Assembly: GCA_013697785.1 (NCBI GenBank)
Contig: JACCWE010000042.1
Location: 1 to 64,000, forward strand
Origin: Gemmatimonadaceae bacterium
Lineage (GTDB): Bacteria; Gemmatimonadota; Gemmatimonadetes; Gemmatimonadales; Gemmatimonadaceae
Direction of reading: 5' to 3'
DNA length: 64,000 nt
Position numbers and translations under genes: made by a program. Position 1 is the first letter of the stretch. Every line of letters starts with the position of its first letter. The notes beneath the pieces are model-generated. The model searched no databases. It was not told where the DNA came from and saw nothing but the letters and a program-made list of their open reading frames with translations. Below are positions 3,494 to 59,808 of the stretch, in pieces.

Positions 3494-3663
3494 GGCGCGG
3501 ACGCGAGCGGATCCATCGACGCGAACGCCGTGCGAAGCTGGGCGTCGGTAGAATCGGTGCGCCGTGGGAGACTCCAAGTGTCCGCAATTCGGCAATGCGT
3601 CGAATGCGCACCTCCACATTTGGCACTGGCGAAGTGCGGTGTCGTCGGGAATTTTAGGCCACC

Positions 3664-3753
3664 ATGAGAGTCTTACGAGCGAGTATGGTTGCCCTCACCG
3701 TCGCCGCGTGCTCCGTTCGCGACACCGGCGCCACGTCCGGAGCTGGCGAGTGA
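3664..3753 (+). CDS. Possible 29-residue lipoprotein or leader peptide upstream of phoD
   Basis: A 29-codon reading frame encodes MRVLRASMVALTVAACSVRD and a short tail. It has a basic start, a hydrophobic core and a lipobox-like VAAC. Its TGA stop overlaps a GTG codon (3750) that is in frame with the phosphatase gene, a layout typical of translational coupling. It could be a tiny lipoprotein, a leader peptide, or the stump of a lost lipoprotein. Ribosome-site support is weak. Confidence 0.35.
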   Translation: MRVLRASMVALTVAACSVRDTGATSGAGE

Positions 3754-3758
3754 AGCCG

Positions 3759-5828
3759 ATGAATCGGCGCGAGGCGCTCAAGCTCGCCGCGGCGATCGGC
3801 GCGTCGCTCGCATGGAAGCCATCGGCATCCGCGCTCGGCGCTGCCTCTCGTGCAGCGCGCATCGAGCGTCGCGATCTCTTTCCCGAAGGCGTTGCGTCCG
3901 GCGACCCGCACTCCGACAGCATTCTCCTCTGGACTCGTCGCCCACCGGTTGCCGGTGACACGGCCGCACAGCTCACCGTGCAGGTGGCCGAGGATCCGTC
4001 GTTCGAGCGATTGGTGGCAGAGGCGAGTGCGCTGCTGCGCGCCGAGACCGACTGGACGTGCAGAGTGCTCGCAGCGGGACTCGAGCCGCGCCGGCAGTAC
4101 TGGTATCGCTTCACCGATGAGCGCGGGAACACGAGTCGAGTCGGTCGCACGATCACTGCGCCCGCGAGCGGCGACGGCGCGCCGGTGAGCTTCACCTTCG
4201 TCTCCTGTCAGAACAATCAGCTCGGTGCGTGCAACGCGTATCGGCGCATGATCTGGGAGGACGAGAAGCGGCCGGCGAACGAGCAGCTGGGCTTCGTCAT
4301 GCACCTCGGCGATTTCGTCTACGACCTGATGTGGTATCCGGAGGATCGCCCCAGCGGCTACTACGATCGCCGCATCCGCGACATCGTCCGCTATCCCGAC
4401 GGCGAGAAACACGAGGACTTCCACGTGCCGACGACGGTCGACGGCTATCGCGTACTCTACCGCGCGTATCTCGCCGATCCCGATCTGCAGGATGCGCGCG
4501 CCCGCTGGCCATTCGTCTGCATGTGGGACAACCACGAATTCTCGTGGAAGGGATGGCAAAGCCAACAGAACTTCGGCGAGGGCACGGTGCCCGCGCAGAC
4601 GCGGAAAGTCGCGGCGGCGCAGGCGTGGTGGGAGTATCAGCCCGCGCGCGTCGCGAAGGCGGGCGGCGGCTCACTCAACGACTTCAGAGCTCCGAAGGTC
4701 GCGAACAAGCCGCTCACTAAAATCGATGCGAACGGACTCGGCGAAGACGCCGACAACCTGGCGGCGATTCACGCGCTCACGTTGTATCGCTCGCTGCGCT
4801 ACGGCGGCAACGTCGATCTCATTCTCACGGACAATCGATCGTATCGCTCGGAGCCCGTGAACGATCGCGCGGAGATGAAGGCGTTCAGGCCGAAGGGATT
4901 TCCGTACTTCGATCTCGATGAGGCGTTCGGCGCGCTGGACGCGGGGCGCACGTACAGGGGCGGCCATCCGCCGGCGACGATCGAGTTCGATGGCGCGCAG
5001 CTCCCGAATCCGAACGTGCATGCGGCGCCGGGCACGATGCTCGGCGCGCAGCAGAAAGCGTGGTTTCTCGCGCGACTCAGGAGCGCGACAGCTCCGTGGA
5101 AGCTCTGGGGAAATTCGGTCGCGTCGCTCGACTGGCGTACGGATCTGCAGAACGTACCAGCCGTGGACGGTCAGCGCTGGCCCTCGCCGGGCTACGGGCT
5201 GAGCACGGAGGAGGACTGGTCGGCGTATCGCGCCGAGCGCAACGAGATCTTCGACAGCGTGCGTGCGCATCGCGTGTCGGGTTTCGTATCGCTGTGCGGC
5301 GACAGACACGCGTTCACGGCGGGACGAGTGTCGACATCGCTGCCGCCGGAGCAGTTCGCGCCCCTCGGCGTGGAGTTCATCACAGGCTCGATATCCGCGC
5401 CGGGGCTCGTCGAATCGACGGAGCACCGAATTCCGAAGGACCATCCGCATCGCGCGCTCTACTTTCACGACACCCCCTCGGGCGCTCGCTCGACGATCAA
5501 CGCGGCCTTGAGGCACGGCGTGAAGACATGCCTCGTGCTGCAGGAGACGGGCGACGAAGGAAAGGCGCTCGCGGCCAGCAATCCCGACGTGGCGCCGCAT
5601 CTCACCTTCGCCGATCTCGGCGGCCACGGCTACGCGATAGTGCGCGCGGCTGCGGATGCGCTTGACGTCGAGTTCGTGTGCATCGCGCGACCGGTCGAGC
5701 GCGCGCAGGGCAGCGATGGTGGCCCGCTCGTGTACCGGATCTCGCACCACGTGCCACGATGGGCAGCGGGCGACGAGCCGACGCTCGAGCGAAGGGATCT
5801 GGAAGGGGTGCCACCGCTGCTCTCGTGA
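3759..5828 (+). CDS. phoD: PhoD-family alkaline phosphatase/phosphodiesterase
   Basis: 689 residues from the ATG at 3759; a GTG at 3750 is an alternative that would couple to the small upstream frame. The N-terminus has a Tat-like signal (NRREALK, a hydrophobic stretch, PSASA), as expected for a folded metalloenzyme exported to the periplasm. A PhoD N-terminal domain follows (FPEGVASGDPHSDSILLWTR). The metallophosphatase core shows FVSCQNN, MHLGDFVYD, WDNHEF and CGDRHAF, which carry the Fe/Ca ligands of PhoD. The family cleaves phosphate mono- and diesters, often under phosphate limitation. No clear Pho box is seen. The gene converges on the nucleotidyltransferase downstream. Confidence 0.93.
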   Translation: MNRREALKLAAAIGASLAWKPSASALGAASRAARIERRDLFPEGVASGDPHSDSILLWTRRPPVAGDTAAQLTVQVAEDPSFERLVAEASALLRAETDWTCRVLAAGLEPRRQYWYRFTDERGNTSRVGRTITAPASGDGAPVSFTFVSCQNNQLGACNAYRRMIWEDEKRPANEQLGFVMHLGDFVYDLMWYPEDRPSGYYDRRIRDIVRYPDGEKHEDFHVPTTVDGYRVLYRAYLADPDLQDARARWPFVCMWDNHEFSWKGWQSQQNFGEGTVPAQTRKVAAAQAWWEYQPARVAKAGGGSLNDFRAPKVANKPLTKIDANGLGEDADNLAAIHALTLYRSLRYGGNVDLILTDNRSYRSEPVNDRAEMKAFRPKGFPYFDLDEAFGALDAGRTYRGGHPPATIEFDGAQLPNPNVHAAPGTMLGAQQKAWFLARLRSATAPWKLWGNSVASLDWRTDLQNVPAVDGQRWPSPGYGLSTEEDWSAYRAERNEIFDSVRAHRVSGFVSLCGDRHAFTAGRVSTSLPPEQFAPLGVEFITGSISAPGLVESTEHRIPKDHPHRALYFHDTPSGARSTINAALRHGVKTCLVLQETGDEGKALAASNPDVAPHLTFADLGGHGYAIVRAAADALDVEFVCIARPVERAQGSDGGPLVYRISHHVPRWAAGDEPTLERRDLEGVPPLLS

Positions 5829-5846
5829 GGCGAAAAGCGGAATTAT

Positions 5847-5865
5847 CTTAGTACTGAGAGATCTC
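5847..5865. repeat. 19-base near-palindromic repeat, copy 1
   Basis: On the minus strand this reads GAGATCTCTCAGTACTAAG. It differs by only two bases from 56823-56841 (GAAATCTCTTAGTACTAAG). It covers the last codons and part of the stop of the nucleotidyltransferase gene, between convergent genes. I read it as a copy of an interspersed repeat; only two copies are in this window. Confidence 0.5.
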
Positions 5866-6663
5866 CGCCGCGCGCCCGGTCAGCCGCTCCGTCGCCTCGC
5901 GAAATCCCTCCGGCAACCCGACATCGAGAAACGTCCCGTGCAGAACGCGCCCGCGCAGCGCGCCGCGCGCGAGCATCATCTGCATCACGGGAATGTCGTC
6001 GAGCTCCTTCCCGGCCGCGAGCGATCGTTCGACCTCATCGATCACTCCGAATGCGGTCGGCAGGAACACGTACCGGCCGACGCCGGTCATCGCGGATCGC
6101 GCGTCTCCGAGCGAGAAGGTGCTGCCGTGCGCGCCCTTGGCCGGGATCGACTCGATGATGAAGTCATCGTCGCTGCGTACTCCCGGATAGATCGGCGTCG
6201 GCCCTCGCGTCGCCGCGATCTCGTGCGTGATCTCCGTGAGGCCGACCACGTTCGTGCGATCGTGCACGAAGGTCTCGATCACCTGCGCGACCGCGGGCGC
6301 CGGCGCATCGACGAAGAGATTGTCCGGCAGCGCAACGGCCACCGGCTCGTCACCCGCGAAGTCACGACCAACGCGCACCGCATCCGCGAGTCCGCGCGCC
6401 GCAGACTGCACCGCCGTCTCGATTCGCCCCGGCATCCCCGCGCAACCGGCAACGCGCTTCGTGAAATCGATGACCGACTGCTTATCCGGCGAGACGACGA
6501 CCAGCACGTGCTCGATCCCGCTGAGCGCACACTCGCGCAGCACGTGCGCGAGCACCGGCTCTCCTGCTATCAGCACCAGCTCCTTCGCGGTGCCACGCGA
6601 GATCGAGAGCATTCGCGTTCCCTTCCCGCCACACGGAATGATCGCCCTGCGGACCTCGGACAC
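5848..6663 (-). CDS. GalU-like sugar-1-phosphate nucleotidyltransferase
   Basis: 271 residues with a GTG start. The N-terminal motif IPCGGKGTRMLSISRGTAKEL is a variant of the GxGTR...PKE signature of NTP transferases such as GalU. A nucleotide-binding ALPDNLF and a GRYVF...T region follow. It would couple a sugar-1-phosphate to UTP or dTTP to make an activated sugar. GalU is usually nearer 290-300 residues, so this is a short member. It overlaps the upstream glycosidase gene by one base and probably belongs to the same operon as galK, whose product galactose-1-phosphate is a plausible substrate. The last residues (EISQY) are encoded by a repeated 19-base motif. Confidence 0.85.
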   Translation of the reverse strand: MSEVRRAIIPCGGKGTRMLSISRGTAKELVLIAGEPVLAHVLRECALSGIEHVLVVVSPDKQSVIDFTKRVAGCAGMPGRIETAVQSAARGLADAVRVGRDFAGDEPVAVALPDNLFVDAPAPAVAQVIETFVHDRTNVVGLTEITHEIAATRGPTPIYPGVRSDDDFIIESIPAKGAHGSTFSLGDARSAMTGVGRYVFLPTAFGVIDEVERSLAAGKELDDIPVMQMMLARGALRGRVLHGTFLDVGLPEGFREATERLTGRAAEISQY

Positions 6664-55102: not shown

Positions 55103-55891
55103 GTGAACACATCCGGCGAGCCCCTGCCGCGCCGCCAGCCGCTCGCGCTGTGCGCGCGGGATGTTGTCCAGCGCTACGGGAGCGTCGTCGCGCTCGAGGG
55201 TGTGAGTCTCGATGTTGCGGCGGGGAAGAGCATCGCGCTCGTTGGCGAAAGCGGGTCGGGGAAGACGACGCTGCTGCGCTGCTTCAACCGGCTGGTCGAG
55301 CCATCGAGCGGTACGATCTCCGTCGGCGCACAGAACGTGCGCGCGATGGAGAGCGTCGCGCTGCGGCGGATGATCGGCTACGTGCCGCAGGACGGCGGGC
55401 TGATGCCGCACTGGCGCATCCTTCGGAACGTCGCGCTCGTCCCCTCGCTGCTCGGCATTCCGAATGCGAGCGCGGTCGCGACGGAAACGCTCGCGCTCGT
55501 TGGGCTTCCCGCCGCGACCTTCGGCGCGCGCTTTCCGCACGAGCTGTCGGGCGGACAGCGCCAGCGGGCGGCGCTCGCGCGCGCGCTCGCCGCTCGGCCT
55601 GGTGTCGTGCTCATGGACGAGCCGTTCGGTGCGCTCGACGCGATCACCCGCTCCGATCTCCAGGCGGCGTTCGACGCGCTCCGACGCGAGCTTTCATTCA
55701 CGATGCTGATGGTCACGCACGACATAGCCGAGGCGGCGCGGCTCGCCGATGAGCTCGTGGTGATGCGCAACGGCCGCATCGAGCAGCGCGGTACGATCGA
55801 TATGCTCGCGACCGCTCCGGCAACCGAATACGTCGGGACGCTGCTCGAGCGAGCGCTCGCGGCGTCGGCGCCGCTTCGGGGGCTCAGATGA
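55103..55891 (+). CDS. Osmoprotectant-type ABC transporter ATPase
   Basis: 262 residues from a GTG. Walker A is GESGSGKTT, the signature is LSGGQRQRAALARAL, and Walker B is VVLMDEPFGALD, followed by the switch His (MLMVTHD). It clusters with OpuCA/ProV-like ATPases but lacks the CBS domains of OpuCA. Its stop overlaps the fused permease gene by four bases. Confidence 0.9.
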   Translation: MNTSGEPLPRRQPLALCARDVVQRYGSVVALEGVSLDVAAGKSIALVGESGSGKTTLLRCFNRLVEPSSGTISVGAQNVRAMESVALRRMIGYVPQDGGLMPHWRILRNVALVPSLLGIPNASAVATETLALVGLPAATFGARFPHELSGGQRQRAALARALAARPGVVLMDEPFGALDAITRSDLQAAFDALRRELSFTMLMVTHDIAEAARLADELVVMRNGRIEQRGTIDMLATAPATEYVGTLLERALAASAPLRGLR

Positions 55892-57489
55892 GGCGAGCGC
55901 TTCTCGTGCTCGCGCTCGCGATTGCGCCACTTACTTCCCGCGCGCAGGCCCCGGCCCCCGCTGCGCCGGTCATCGTCGCCTCGAAACCTTTCGGCGAGTC
56001 GTATCTCCTCGCCGAGATGTTCGCACAGACACTCGAGGCGCACGGGATATCCGTCGATCGGAAGCCGGGGCTGGGCCAGACGCAGATCGCGATCGAAGCG
56101 CTCCGCTCCGGCGCGATCGATGTCTACCCCGAATACACCGGCACCGGCCTGCTCGCGGTGCTGCACGACACGCTCCCCGATTCGCTCGCGAGCGACGCGC
56201 CCCTCGTCTTTGCACACGTCGCACGCGAGTTCTCCCGACGGTACGGCATGCGCTGGCTACCGCCGCTCGGCTTTCAGAACAGCTACGCGATCGCGGTTCG
56301 AAAGAACACCGCCGCCGAGTATCGTCTCCGCACGATGAGCGATCTCGCGCGCGAGAGCTCGCACCTCACCGCCGGATTCACGGCGGACTTCATCGGCCGC
56401 CCCGATGGACTCGCCGGCCTCGCGCGCGCATACGGCGTTCGGCCGCGAGCGGTGCGTCCACTCGCACCAGCAGTGAAGTACCAGGCGCTCGCGAGCGGCG
56501 CGGTCGACGTCATCGATGGCTACTCCACCGACGGCCTCCTCGCGAAGTACGACCTCGTCACGCTCATCGACGACAAGCACTTTTTCCCGCCGTACCAGGC
56601 CGCCGCGCTGGTTGGCTCGCGCCTCGCGCACAACCGCCCCGACGCACTGGCCGCGCTCACGACGCTGAGTGGCATGCTCGACGAACGCCGCATGCGCGCG
56701 CTCAACCGGCGCATCGAAGTCGACGGCGAAGATGTGAAGCGCGTCGCCGCTGATGCGCTGCGGGACGTCGGCATCACCGCAGCAACATCGGAACGCGCCG
56801 CTGGTGGCGCATCCGAAAACCGGAAATCTCTTAGTACTAAGGGATCTTTGTCATCCTATCTCTGGCAGCGACGCGCCTCGATCTGGCATCTCGTTCTCCA
56901 GCATCTCCTCCTCGTCGCCCTCGCACTCGGCGCCGCCATCGTCGTCGCGCTGCCGCTCGCTCTCGCGCTCGAGCGCACGCGTCGGCTCGCCGAGCCGATC
57001 GTCGGCGCGCTCGGCGTGCTCGAAACGATTCCGAGCATCGCGCTCCTCGCCTTCATGATTCCCTTCTTCGGCATTGGGATCGAGCCGGCGCTCGTGGCGC
57101 TCTGGATCTACGCCCTCTATCCCATCGTGCGCTCTGCCTACAGCGGCGTCCGCGACGCCGACCCCTCGGCCGTCGAAGCCGCGGAAGCGCTCGGGATGAC
57201 GCCGTGGCATCGCCTCCTTTCGGTGCGCCTTCCACTCGCGGCGCCAGTGATCATGTCGGGGATTCGAACCGCTGCGGTCATTACCGTGGGCGCGGCAACG
57301 CTCGCCGCCTTCATCGGCGCCGGGGGGCTCGGCGAGCCGATCGTCGCGGGACTCGCGCTCGCCGACACGAACATGATTCTCTCCGGTGCACTCCCCGCCG
57401 CGGCGCTCGCCCTACTGGTCGACGGTGCGCTCGCGCTGGTCGAACGCGCGGTCGCACCGGCCCATCAGCGTCACACCGCTTCCAGGTAG
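55888..57489 (+). CDS. Fused binding protein-permease of a glycine-betaine/choline-type ABC importer
   Basis: 533 residues. A signal (to about 20) precedes an OpuAC-type binding domain (about 27-300; SKPFGESYLLAEMFAQTLEA, DVYPEYTGTGLLAVL, AVDVIDGYSTDGLL). A polar linker (about 305-325) leads to an OpuCB-type permease with five to six membrane helices and the EAA loop (EAAEALGMTPWHRLLSVRLP). Most fusions place the permease first. Here the binding domain is N-terminal. The linker is coded by a 19-base repeat also found at 5847. Substrate is a quaternary amine by family. Confidence 0.9.
   Translation: MRRALLVLALAIAPLTSRAQAPAPAAPVIVASKPFGESYLLAEMFAQTLEAHGISVDRKPGLGQTQIAIEALRSGAIDVYPEYTGTGLLAVLHDTLPDSLASDAPLVFAHVAREFSRRYGMRWLPPLGFQNSYAIAVRKNTAAEYRLRTMSDLARESSHLTAGFTADFIGRPDGLAGLARAYGVRPRAVRPLAPAVKYQALASGAVDVIDGYSTDGLLAKYDLVTLIDDKHFFPPYQAAALVGSRLAHNRPDALAALTTLSGMLDERRMRALNRRIEVDGEDVKRVAADALRDVGITAATSERAAGGASENRKSLSTKGSLSSYLWQRRASIWHLVLQHLLLVALALGAAIVVALPLALALERTRRLAEPIVGALGVLETIPSIALLAFMIPFFGIGIEPALVALWIYALYPIVRSAYSGVRDADPSAVEAAEALGMTPWHRLLSVRLPLAAPVIMSGIRTAAVITVGAATLAAFIGAGGLGEPIVAGLALADTNMILSGALPAAALALLVDGALALVERAVAPAHQRHTASR
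56823..56841. repeat. 19-base near-palindromic repeat, copy 2
   Basis: GAAATCTCTTAGTACTAAG differs at only two positions from the minus-strand copy at 5847-5865. It lies inside the fused permease gene and, with the following bases (GGATCTTTGTCATCC), codes for the linker. The core CTTAGTACTAAG is itself a perfect palindrome. Confidence 0.5.
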
Positions 57490-58442
57490 ACGACCCAGAA
57501 CTGCCGCTTCGCGTTCGTCCACAGCTTCCTGATGCGGAAGCCCGCCGTGTCGACCAGCTCCTCGAGGCGCGCGCGATCGTACTTGTACGAGCTCTCCGTC
57601 CAGATTGATTCGCCCTTCTCGAAGTCGACGAGCTCGTCCGCCACCTTCACCGTCTGAGCTTCCGTGCTGACGAGATGCATCTCGACTCTGCTCGCGCTCG
57701 AATTGAAGAAGGCGCGATGCCGGAACTTGTCGAGGTCGAAGCGGGCGCCCACATCGTGGTTGAGCACCTTCAGCATGTTCAGGTTGAACTTCGCCGTTAC
57801 CCCTGCCGAGTCATCGTAGGCCGCGTTGAGCACCGCGACGCCCTTGCGGCGGTCGACACCGAGGATCAGCGCGCCATCCTTGCCGACGACACGACGCACG
57901 CGACTCAGGAACGCGACCGCCTCCATCGGATGGAAGTTGCCGATCGTCGAGCCCGGGAAGAACGCGACTCTGCGCGAGCGCACGGGAAGGTCGGGAACCG
58001 TGTGCGGACGCGTGTAGTCCGCGTTCAGTGGTCGCACCGCGACATCGCGATACTCGGCCGCGAGCTCGGTCGCCACGCGCTCGAGCTGCTCGCGCGAGAT
58101 GTCGATCGGCACGTACGCCGCCGGCGACTCCAGCGCGTCGAGCAGCAGCCGAATTTTCACGCCGGCGCCGCTCCCGTACTCGAGCAGAGCGACCTGCGGC
58201 CCGGCGAGCTCCGCGATCTCGCCCGCGCGCGCGCGAAGGATCTCGAGCTCGGCTCGCGTGAGATAGTACTCGGGAAGATCGCAGATCTCCTCGAACAGCT
58301 CGGCGCCGACGGCATCGTAAAACAGCTTCGGCGGCAGCGTCTTCGGCTCGGCGTGCAGCCCGCGAAGTACTTCGTCGCGGACGCTCTGCTTATTCGAGCG
58401 CGCGACGATGCGCGGCACACCTTGCCGCGAAGTCATCGTCAT
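57471..58442 (-). CDS. egtD: L-histidine N-alpha-methyltransferase EgtD
   Basis: 323 residues from the ATG at 58442. The family pattern is PPKLFYDAVGAELFEEICDLPEYYLTR, then ALLEYGSGAGVKIRLLLDAL (SAM-binding) and FFPGSTIGNFHP. EgtD trimethylates histidine to hercynine in ergothioneine synthesis. It follows egtB after ten bases, and its 3' end overlaps the convergent permease gene by 19 bases. Confidence 0.96.
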   Translation of the reverse strand: MTMTSRQGVPRIVARSNKQSVRDEVLRGLHAEPKTLPPKLFYDAVGAELFEEICDLPEYYLTRAELEILRARAGEIAELAGPQVALLEYGSGAGVKIRLLLDALESPAAYVPIDISREQLERVATELAAEYRDVAVRPLNADYTRPHTVPDLPVRSRRVAFFPGSTIGNFHPMEAVAFLSRVRRVVGKDGALILGVDRRKGVAVLNAAYDDSAGVTAKFNLNMLKVLNHDVGARFDLDKFRHRAFFNSSASRVEMHLVSTEAQTVKVADELVDFEKGESIWTESSYKYDRARLEELVDTAGFRIRKLWTNAKRQFWVVYLEAV

Positions 58443-58452
58443 CGAGCACTCA

Positions 58453-59808
58453 TCACGCGTGGTCGGCAAGGCGAATCCCCATGAACTGCCACCGTGCATC
58501 CGATGGGAAGAAGTTTCTGTACGTGAGCCGCGCGTGCGAGCGCGGCGTGGCGCACGATGCGCCGCGCAGCACCCACTGATCGGCCATCCACTTGCCATTG
58601 TATTCACCAATCGCGCCAGTGTCCGTCTTGAAGCCCGGATAGCCGACGTACGCGCTCTGCGTCCACTGCCACACATCGCCATAGAGCTGCGTGAGCTCGC
58701 CCGACGCGATCGCTTCGGCGCTCGCCGGCGCCGGATGGAAATTCTCGCTCTCGACGAAGTTCCCCGTGATCGGAATGCCTCGCGCGGCGACCTCCCACTC
58801 GGCCTCCGTCGGCAGGCGACGCTTCGCCCACCGTGCGAATGCATCCGCTTCGTAGTAGCTCACGTGACACACTGGCGCATCGAGCTCCAGGGCTCGCGTG
58901 CCGGCGAGTGTGAACTCCGTCCAGCCATCGTCCACGCGCTCCCAGTAGAACGGCGCTTTCCAGCCGCCATCATTCACCATCGCGAGACCGGGCGAAAGCC
59001 AGAGCTCGGAGCGCTCGTAGCCGCCATCGTTGACGAACTCGAGATAGTCGGCGTTCGTCACGAGGCGCGACGCGAGCTCGAAGTCCTCGAGGAATTCGCG
59101 ATGCGCAGGGAGCTCGTTATCGAACGAGAAGCCGTCGTCCTGATGGCCGATGCGATGCACACCGCCGCTGAACGACTTCCACGCAGTGGCCGGGAGAGCG
59201 CGCGATGGAACTTCAGCGCGCTCGCGATATACCGGGCGGAGCGGGTTCATCCAGAAGACGTGCTTTATGTCGGTGACGAGCAGCTCCTGATGCTGCTGCT
59301 CGTGATGAAGGCCGAGCACGATCAGCGGGTATGCAGGGTGGCTCGGATCGTCGTTGATCTCGGCGAGTAGCGCGCGCACCGCTTCGTTCACGTGCGCGCG
59401 GTATTCGAAGACCTCGCGCACGGTGGGGCGTGTCACGAGACCGCGCATCGCTCTGCAGTGGCGCTCGCCCGCCTGCACGTAGTATGAGTTGAACAGGAAT
59501 GCGTAGCGCGGGTTCGGCGACACGTACTCGGGTGCGTGCGGACCGAGGATGAACGTCTCGTAGAACCAGCTCGTATGCGCGAGATGCCACTTCGTCGGAC
59601 TTACGTCGGCCATGCTGCTGACGACGAAATCCTCGGTGTCGAGCGGCTCGCACAACCGTTCGGTCTGCGCACGAACAGCGTCGAAGCGCTCGGCCAGCGT
59701 CTGGGTGCGGTGCTGTGATCGCGAGCTATCGGAGCGGTCGGACTCGGACTGGGCAGTGAGCATCGATGCAGCCATTGGTAGCCTTGAGGCAGAAGCAGAC
59801 GTTAACAT
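58453..59808 (-). CDS. egtB: Ergothioneine biosynthesis sulfoxide synthase EgtB
   Basis: About 451 residues; ATG codons at 59808, 59775 and 59763 are all usable. The N-terminal DinB-like part has the iron motif HHEQQHQE (HX3HXE) and SPTKWHLAHTSWFYE. The C-terminal FGE-sulfatase domain follows (SYYEADAFARWAKRRLPTEAEWE, then WVLRGASCATPRSHAR). EgtB forms the C-S bond between hercynine and a thiol donor. egtC and egtE are not in the window, so the gamma-glutamyl-cysteine or cysteine route cannot be decided. Confidence 0.96.
   Translation of the reverse strand: MLTSASASRLPMAASMLTAQSESDRSDSSRSQHRTQTLAERFDAVRAQTERLCEPLDTEDFVVSSMADVSPTKWHLAHTSWFYETFILGPHAPEYVSPNPRYAFLFNSYYVQAGERHCRAMRGLVTRPTVREVFEYRAHVNEAVRALLAEINDDPSHPAYPLIVLGLHHEQQHQELLVTDIKHVFWMNPLRPVYRERAEVPSRALPATAWKSFSGGVHRIGHQDDGFSFDNELPAHREFLEDFELASRLVTNADYLEFVNDGGYERSELWLSPGLAMVNDGGWKAPFYWERVDDGWTEFTLAGTRALELDAPVCHVSYYEADAFARWAKRRLPTEAEWEVAARGIPITGNFVESENFHPAPASAEAIASGELTQLYGDVWQWTQSAYVGYPGFKTDTGAIGEYNGKWMADQWVLRGASCATPRSHARLTYRNFFPSDARWQFMGIRLADHA

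Follow-up and report, generated by a model that had tools for sequence, protein, structure and literature searches.

The window (the whole stretch of DNA analysed here, 64 kb long) contains two copies of one short palindromic sequence, which lie inside a transporter gene and at the end of a nucleotidyltransferase gene. The genes and sites concerned are the following:

3564..5828, + strand: PhoD-like phosphatase gene (phoD), whose 3' end adjoins the 5843-5862 site
5843..5862, unstranded: palindromic operator-like site TTATCTTAGTACTGAGAGAT, in the short gap between the convergent phoD and nucleotidyltransferase genes
5847-5865, - strand: second 19-mer copy, GAGATCTCTCAGTACTAAG
5848..6663, - strand: GalU/RmlA-like nucleotidyltransferase gene, with its last codons and stop inside the site
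55103..55891, + strand: ABC ATPase partner (ProV-like)
55888..57489, + strand: OpuAC and BPD_transp_1 fusion ORF, 533 aa
56823-56841, + strand: first 19-mer copy, GAAATCTCTTAGTACTAAG
56826..56845, unstranded: palindromic operator-like site ATCTCTTAGTACTAAGGGAT, read in frame within the linker that joins the two parts of the substrate-binding domain (SBD)-permease fusion

A sequence-only reading had drawn attention to the two 19-mers, and a sequence comparison within the 64-kb window confirmed that 17 of their 19 bases are identical. When up to three mismatches were allowed, the 19-mer gave four matches in the window, all at these two places, and no match of that quality was found in 100 dinucleotide shuffles of the window, which places the similarity beyond chance. 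The full palindrome measures 18-20 bp at both sites, and the site at 56826-56845 is an almost perfect 20-bp palindrome. As the same reading had proposed, this copy codes for the linker between two domains: it lies in frame between OpuAC (residues 27-292) and BPD_transp_1 (354-522), where its codons (TCT CTT AGT ACT AAG GGA) translate to S-L-S-T-K-G. At the linker site, inspection by eye suggests a weak TGGCGC-N16-TCTCTT in G000 but not in G001, and we do not claim a promoter there. At 5843-5862, the palindrome supplies the stop codon of the nucleotidyltransferase gene, and the site 3' of phoD is kept in genome G004 despite a different next gene there.

The binding domain of the fusion is closest to EgtUC, an ergothioneine-binding domain (9egj, 2.4e-54), and the neighbors of the fusion are the convergent genes egtD and egtB, both above NCBIfam cut-offs, in a block that covers 55103-59808 of the window; these neighbors are kept in G001-G003. 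From sequence, the ABC ATPase and the fusion together are a candidate EgtU-like ergothioneine importer. Known EgtU proteins have the domain order permease-SBD, whereas the fusion here has the reverse order, SBD-permease.

The palindrome is not confined to the window, and the earlier count of two copies proved too low. Pattern searches of the genome recovered about 10 copies of TTATCTTAGTACTAAGATAA (reversed-pattern control: none genome-wide), nine places with the core CTTAGTACTAAG at one mismatch, and ten places with the 20-bp consensus WTMTCTTAGTACTAAGAKAW at up to three mismatches, compared to none for the reversed control. The further copies that the sequence-only reading suggested looking for thus exist, in nine to ten places. 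When the flanks of the copies were set side by side and compared by eye, we saw no evident similarity beyond the palindrome. The genus of the window genome has 8–9 sites outside what we call the classical regulon below, within or at the ends of genes. In addition to the two window sites, the genes with such a copy are:

an anthranilate/aminodeoxychorismate synthase gene (within the linker)
a geranylgeranyl-reductase-family gene
a PLP-dependent decarboxylase gene
a gene with an F5/8 domain (site in only two species)
a deoxyhypusine synthase gene (immediately upstream)
a short gene on contig C138 (at its end, kept in G004)
an argB-like kinase gene (a weak copy)

No clear common function was found among the intragenic loci. 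Coding copies are read in all three frames (e.g. SLSTKG, ISVLRD, and ISQY-stop), which points to a constraint on the DNA rather than on one peptide. In several cases, a copy coincides exactly with a stop codon or lies between two convergent genes (window 5843-5862; L044 at 5972; L180 at 1602); within the palindrome CTTAGTACTAAG, each strand carries TAG and TAA in a single frame. A looser pattern also brought up a pair of imperfect palindromes, ATCTCAGCAGTGAGAT and ATCTCACCACTGAGAT, that lie 102 bp apart at L179 (G000 C85), on G004 C389, and on G001 C135; the pair had no Rfam match, and we set it aside as probably unrelated.

Two of the ten copies flank a single MarR-family gene on contig C112 of the same genome (L038:3513-4052), and these two are the best matches in the genome. 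One of them, TTATCTTAGTACTAAGATGACT, overlaps the start codon of the MarR gene; the other lies at the gene end and stop codon, ahead of a glyoxalase-fold gene (Pfam). The palindrome overlaps the MarR ATG in G000, G001, G003, G004, G016, and G017, and in most of these six genomes a second site follows at the 3' end of MarR, ahead of the adjacent gene. This second copy precedes a glyoxalase-like gene in G000, G004, and G001 (identified by Pfam in G000, and by position and matching N-terminal sequence in G004 and G001) and a YceI gene in G016; an alpha/beta hydrolase gene adjoins MarR in G001. Across 31 genomes, a MarR orthologue of at least 50% identity and the motif go together (Fisher P = 0.0007); G013 has an orthologue (50%) and lacks the motif. 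In 25 related genomes, 88.9 Mb in total, there were no motif matches. A scan of 84,980 species found the exact 18-mer at 27 loci, at least 12 of them from Gemmatimonadota, where seven loci are at a MarR gene start, two precede glyoxalase-fold dioxygenases, and two precede pirins (one called by Pfam, the other by matching N-terminal sequence). A third pirin with the 18-mer (L159) belongs to a MAG whose title reads just 'bacterium' and is outside the Gemmatimonadota count. Most of the 18-mer loci have CCTTGC(G) about 16 bases ahead of TATCTT, i.e. the promoter-like spacing TTGC(G)-N16-TATCTT, and in that arrangement the operator would cover a promoter-like -10 element. Paralogous MarR genes (L110 on G000 C95, L101 in G018, and L108 in G017) have perfect 18-bp palindromes of their own near their starts (TCTCTTGAATTCAAGAGA, TATCTTGATATCAAGATA, and TAGTTAGAATTCTAACTA), apparently a family of operators with changing inner bases.

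The C112 regulator has a MarR winged-helix domain (Pfam MarR_2 1.4e-14, MarR 3.4e-13), and its closest relative among solved structures is MhqR of Staphylococcus aureus (9QDR, E=1.9e-21; next best 4.8e-13). The quinone pocket of MhqR is formed by Phe11, Phe39, Glu43, and His111 (PMC12893000). In our alignment, in which residue numbers were matched by hand and the chain numbering was assumed to be offset by three from that publication, Phe39, Glu43, and His111 are identical and Phe11 is replaced by Trp. The protein sequence contains no cysteine, which fits the non-thiol mechanism of MhqR. The MhqR operator, TATCTCGAA-aTCGAaATA, is a 9-9 bp palindrome (PMC6798810); the outer half-sites TATCT…AGATA of our motif are identical to it and the location at promoters agrees, whereas the inner four bases differ (TAGT here, CGAA in MhqR). 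In the recognition helix, Ser64 and Tyr69 are unchanged, Thr takes the place of Ser68, and Gly-Gly that of Ser65-Ser66; this fits an operator with the outer half-sites of MhqR but a different inner part. The likeness to MhqR (YkvE) of Bacillus subtilis and S. aureus extends over the MarR fold, a 9-9 bp palindrome with the same outer half-sites, a putative operator at the regulator's own promoter, a predicted independence from thiols, and targets near the operator that resemble the MhqR regulon (dioxygenases/glyoxalases and detoxification genes). The system here differs in the Gly-Gly substitution, in its pirin and YceI targets, in its extra intragenic sites, and in belonging to a different phylum.

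Together, the homology to MhqR, the positions at regulator, dioxygenase, and pirin promoters, and the common outer half-sites suggest that the motif is most likely an MhqR-type operator and not a mobile repeat. We put a probability of roughly 0.8 on the reading that the palindrome is the operator of a MarR/MhqR-type repressor, of which extra sites were gained in this genus by point mutation and kept. In the mechanism that we propose, the 18-20 bp operator (consensus TATCTYAGTACTRAGATA) would be bound by a dimer of the MarR-family, MhqR-type repressor encoded on C112, whose binding to ATCTTAGTACTAAGAT we infer from sequence. In the core regulon, the operator overlaps a promoter-like -10 element together with the start of the genes for the repressor, glyoxalase-fold ring-cleaving dioxygenases, and pirins. 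Once bound there, the repressor would keep these genes from being transcribed, and a quinone or a related aromatic electrophile would free it from the DNA; the quinone-like ligand and the release are suggested by analogy with MhqR. In this genus, point mutation has made extra sites within unrelated genes or at their ends, both window sites among them, and these sites have been kept.

The sequence-only reading had instead suggested that the motif is an interspersed repeat that may have joined two genes. As a small mobile or palindromic repeat (REP/RPE-like) that inserts in genes and sometimes joins them, it would account for several dispersed copies, some of them in frame within genes and interdomain linkers. 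However, orthologues without the site align gaplessly to those with it for the decarboxylase, the F5/8-domain gene, and the reductase, with no insertion length difference, so these sites were gained by substitution, not insertion, which largely refutes an insertion element. There are also only about 10 copies, their similarity is confined to the 18-20 bp palindrome, and in different genera the exact 18-mer turns up at one and the same MarR gene. REP and Rickettsia palindromic elements share the scattered palindromic copies, some in coding frames, but these elements are either much longer or present in much larger numbers, and they arise through insertion. We therefore consider a mobile repeat highly improbable: further genomic copies do exist, but they do not behave as a repeat and are better explained by an operator.

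The joining of two genes by the motif is rejected as well. Nine relatives encode the OpuAC-permease fusion as a single ORF: three belong to the genus, five to other genera in the family, and one to a different family. The six carriers from other genera or family f2 (G008, G011, G017, G018, G021, and G010) lack the motif. The fusion therefore predates the motif, which arrived later in an existing linker. Separate binding-protein and permease genes, for which the sequence-only reading had proposed to check, occur in more distant relatives (G019 and G024-G028). The linker palindrome is found only in the window genus, including the orthologues in G001, G002, and G003, with degenerate copies in G003 and G002 (3-4 mismatches); outside the palindrome, the linker of these genus members varies freely (TCTCTTAGTACTAAGGGA, TCTCTCAGTACTAAGGGA, TCCCCTAGTACCAAGGGA, and TACCTTAGTACCAGGATA).

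Alternatively, only the promoter operators of the regulon may be real and the intragenic copies coincidental, neutral look-alikes without effect. Chance intragenic transcription factor sites are discussed in the literature (PMC6397444 and PMC4591121), and the loci lack a functional theme. Against this, the window genome has five non-regulon matches, compared to none at the same threshold in the 88.9 Mb of the 25 related genomes (Poisson P about 3e-7, even at an assumed rate of 3 per 88.9 Mb). Moreover, our main retention test, a site-by-site codon-substitution simulation based on empirical codon exchanges, predicted average summed mismatches of 31, 31, and 25 for G001, G002, and G003, whereas we observed 19, 19, and 14. 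Retention was thus above the simulation in three species, with P values of 0.0079, 0.0076, and 0.0046, respectively, which are rough because the rare-codon background is small; the value for G004 is unreliable, as some rare codons had 1-4 background observations. Taken by itself, a test of A/T third positions reached significance in G004 and G003 only. We consider neutrality of the intragenic copies unlikely.

The intragenic copies are often weaker than the strong sites, with a GGG or GAG flank in place of GAT, and show no -35 element at a promoter-like distance; their binding may therefore be poor, or due to another factor. Such a factor, acting at the copies within genes and at gene ends, could be a paralogous MarR protein (with TCTCTTGAATTCAAGAGA upstream of its gene) or a nucleoid or terminator protein. 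The genome does have a paralogue with its own, related palindrome, and several copies lie between convergent genes or over stops (phoD/galU, C138, and the MarR end). The core of the internal copies, however, is of the TAGTACTA type seen in the C112 MarR operator and not the TTGAATTCAA core of the paralogue, and we regard a different factor as very unlikely.

If the C112 repressor does bind its intragenic sites, it probably obstructs elongation there as a roadblock or modulates transcription locally, or else these sites are weak decoys that titrate it. More tentatively, the repressor might, within this one genus, have recruited operators inside unrelated coding sequences, thereby tuning elongation to quinones; such a coding-embedded regulon, built by synonymous or near-synonymous mutations, might include the transporter, the chorismate-using enzyme, the prenyl reductase, the decarboxylase, and argB. 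As a guess, an ergothioneine importer under a quinone-sensing repressor would suit thiol/redox defense. Genus-specific sites that appear to have arisen inside ordinary genes by point mutation and to have been kept are unusual. A report on E. coli sigma54 (PMC4591121) likewise describes binding-type sites in coding regions that are conserved between species; there the factor is a global sigma factor, whereas here the site is a putative operator of a local repressor, known from sequence.

Our literature search found no relevant description of the operator or regulon of an MhqR-type repressor in Gemmatimonadota, and the present analysis supplies an operator and a probable regulon for one. The genus is also a clean natural setting in which to ask whether repressor sites within genes function: one site occurs in all three reading frames and in linkers whose remaining sequence is free to vary, and synonymous changes can destroy it. 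The exact TATCTTAGTACTAAGATA was also found upstream of a MarR gene in the alphaproteobacterium Aminobacter (L156 and L171), as an independent or a shared operator; this MarR gene is divergent from a second ORF, which likely encodes a membrane protein.
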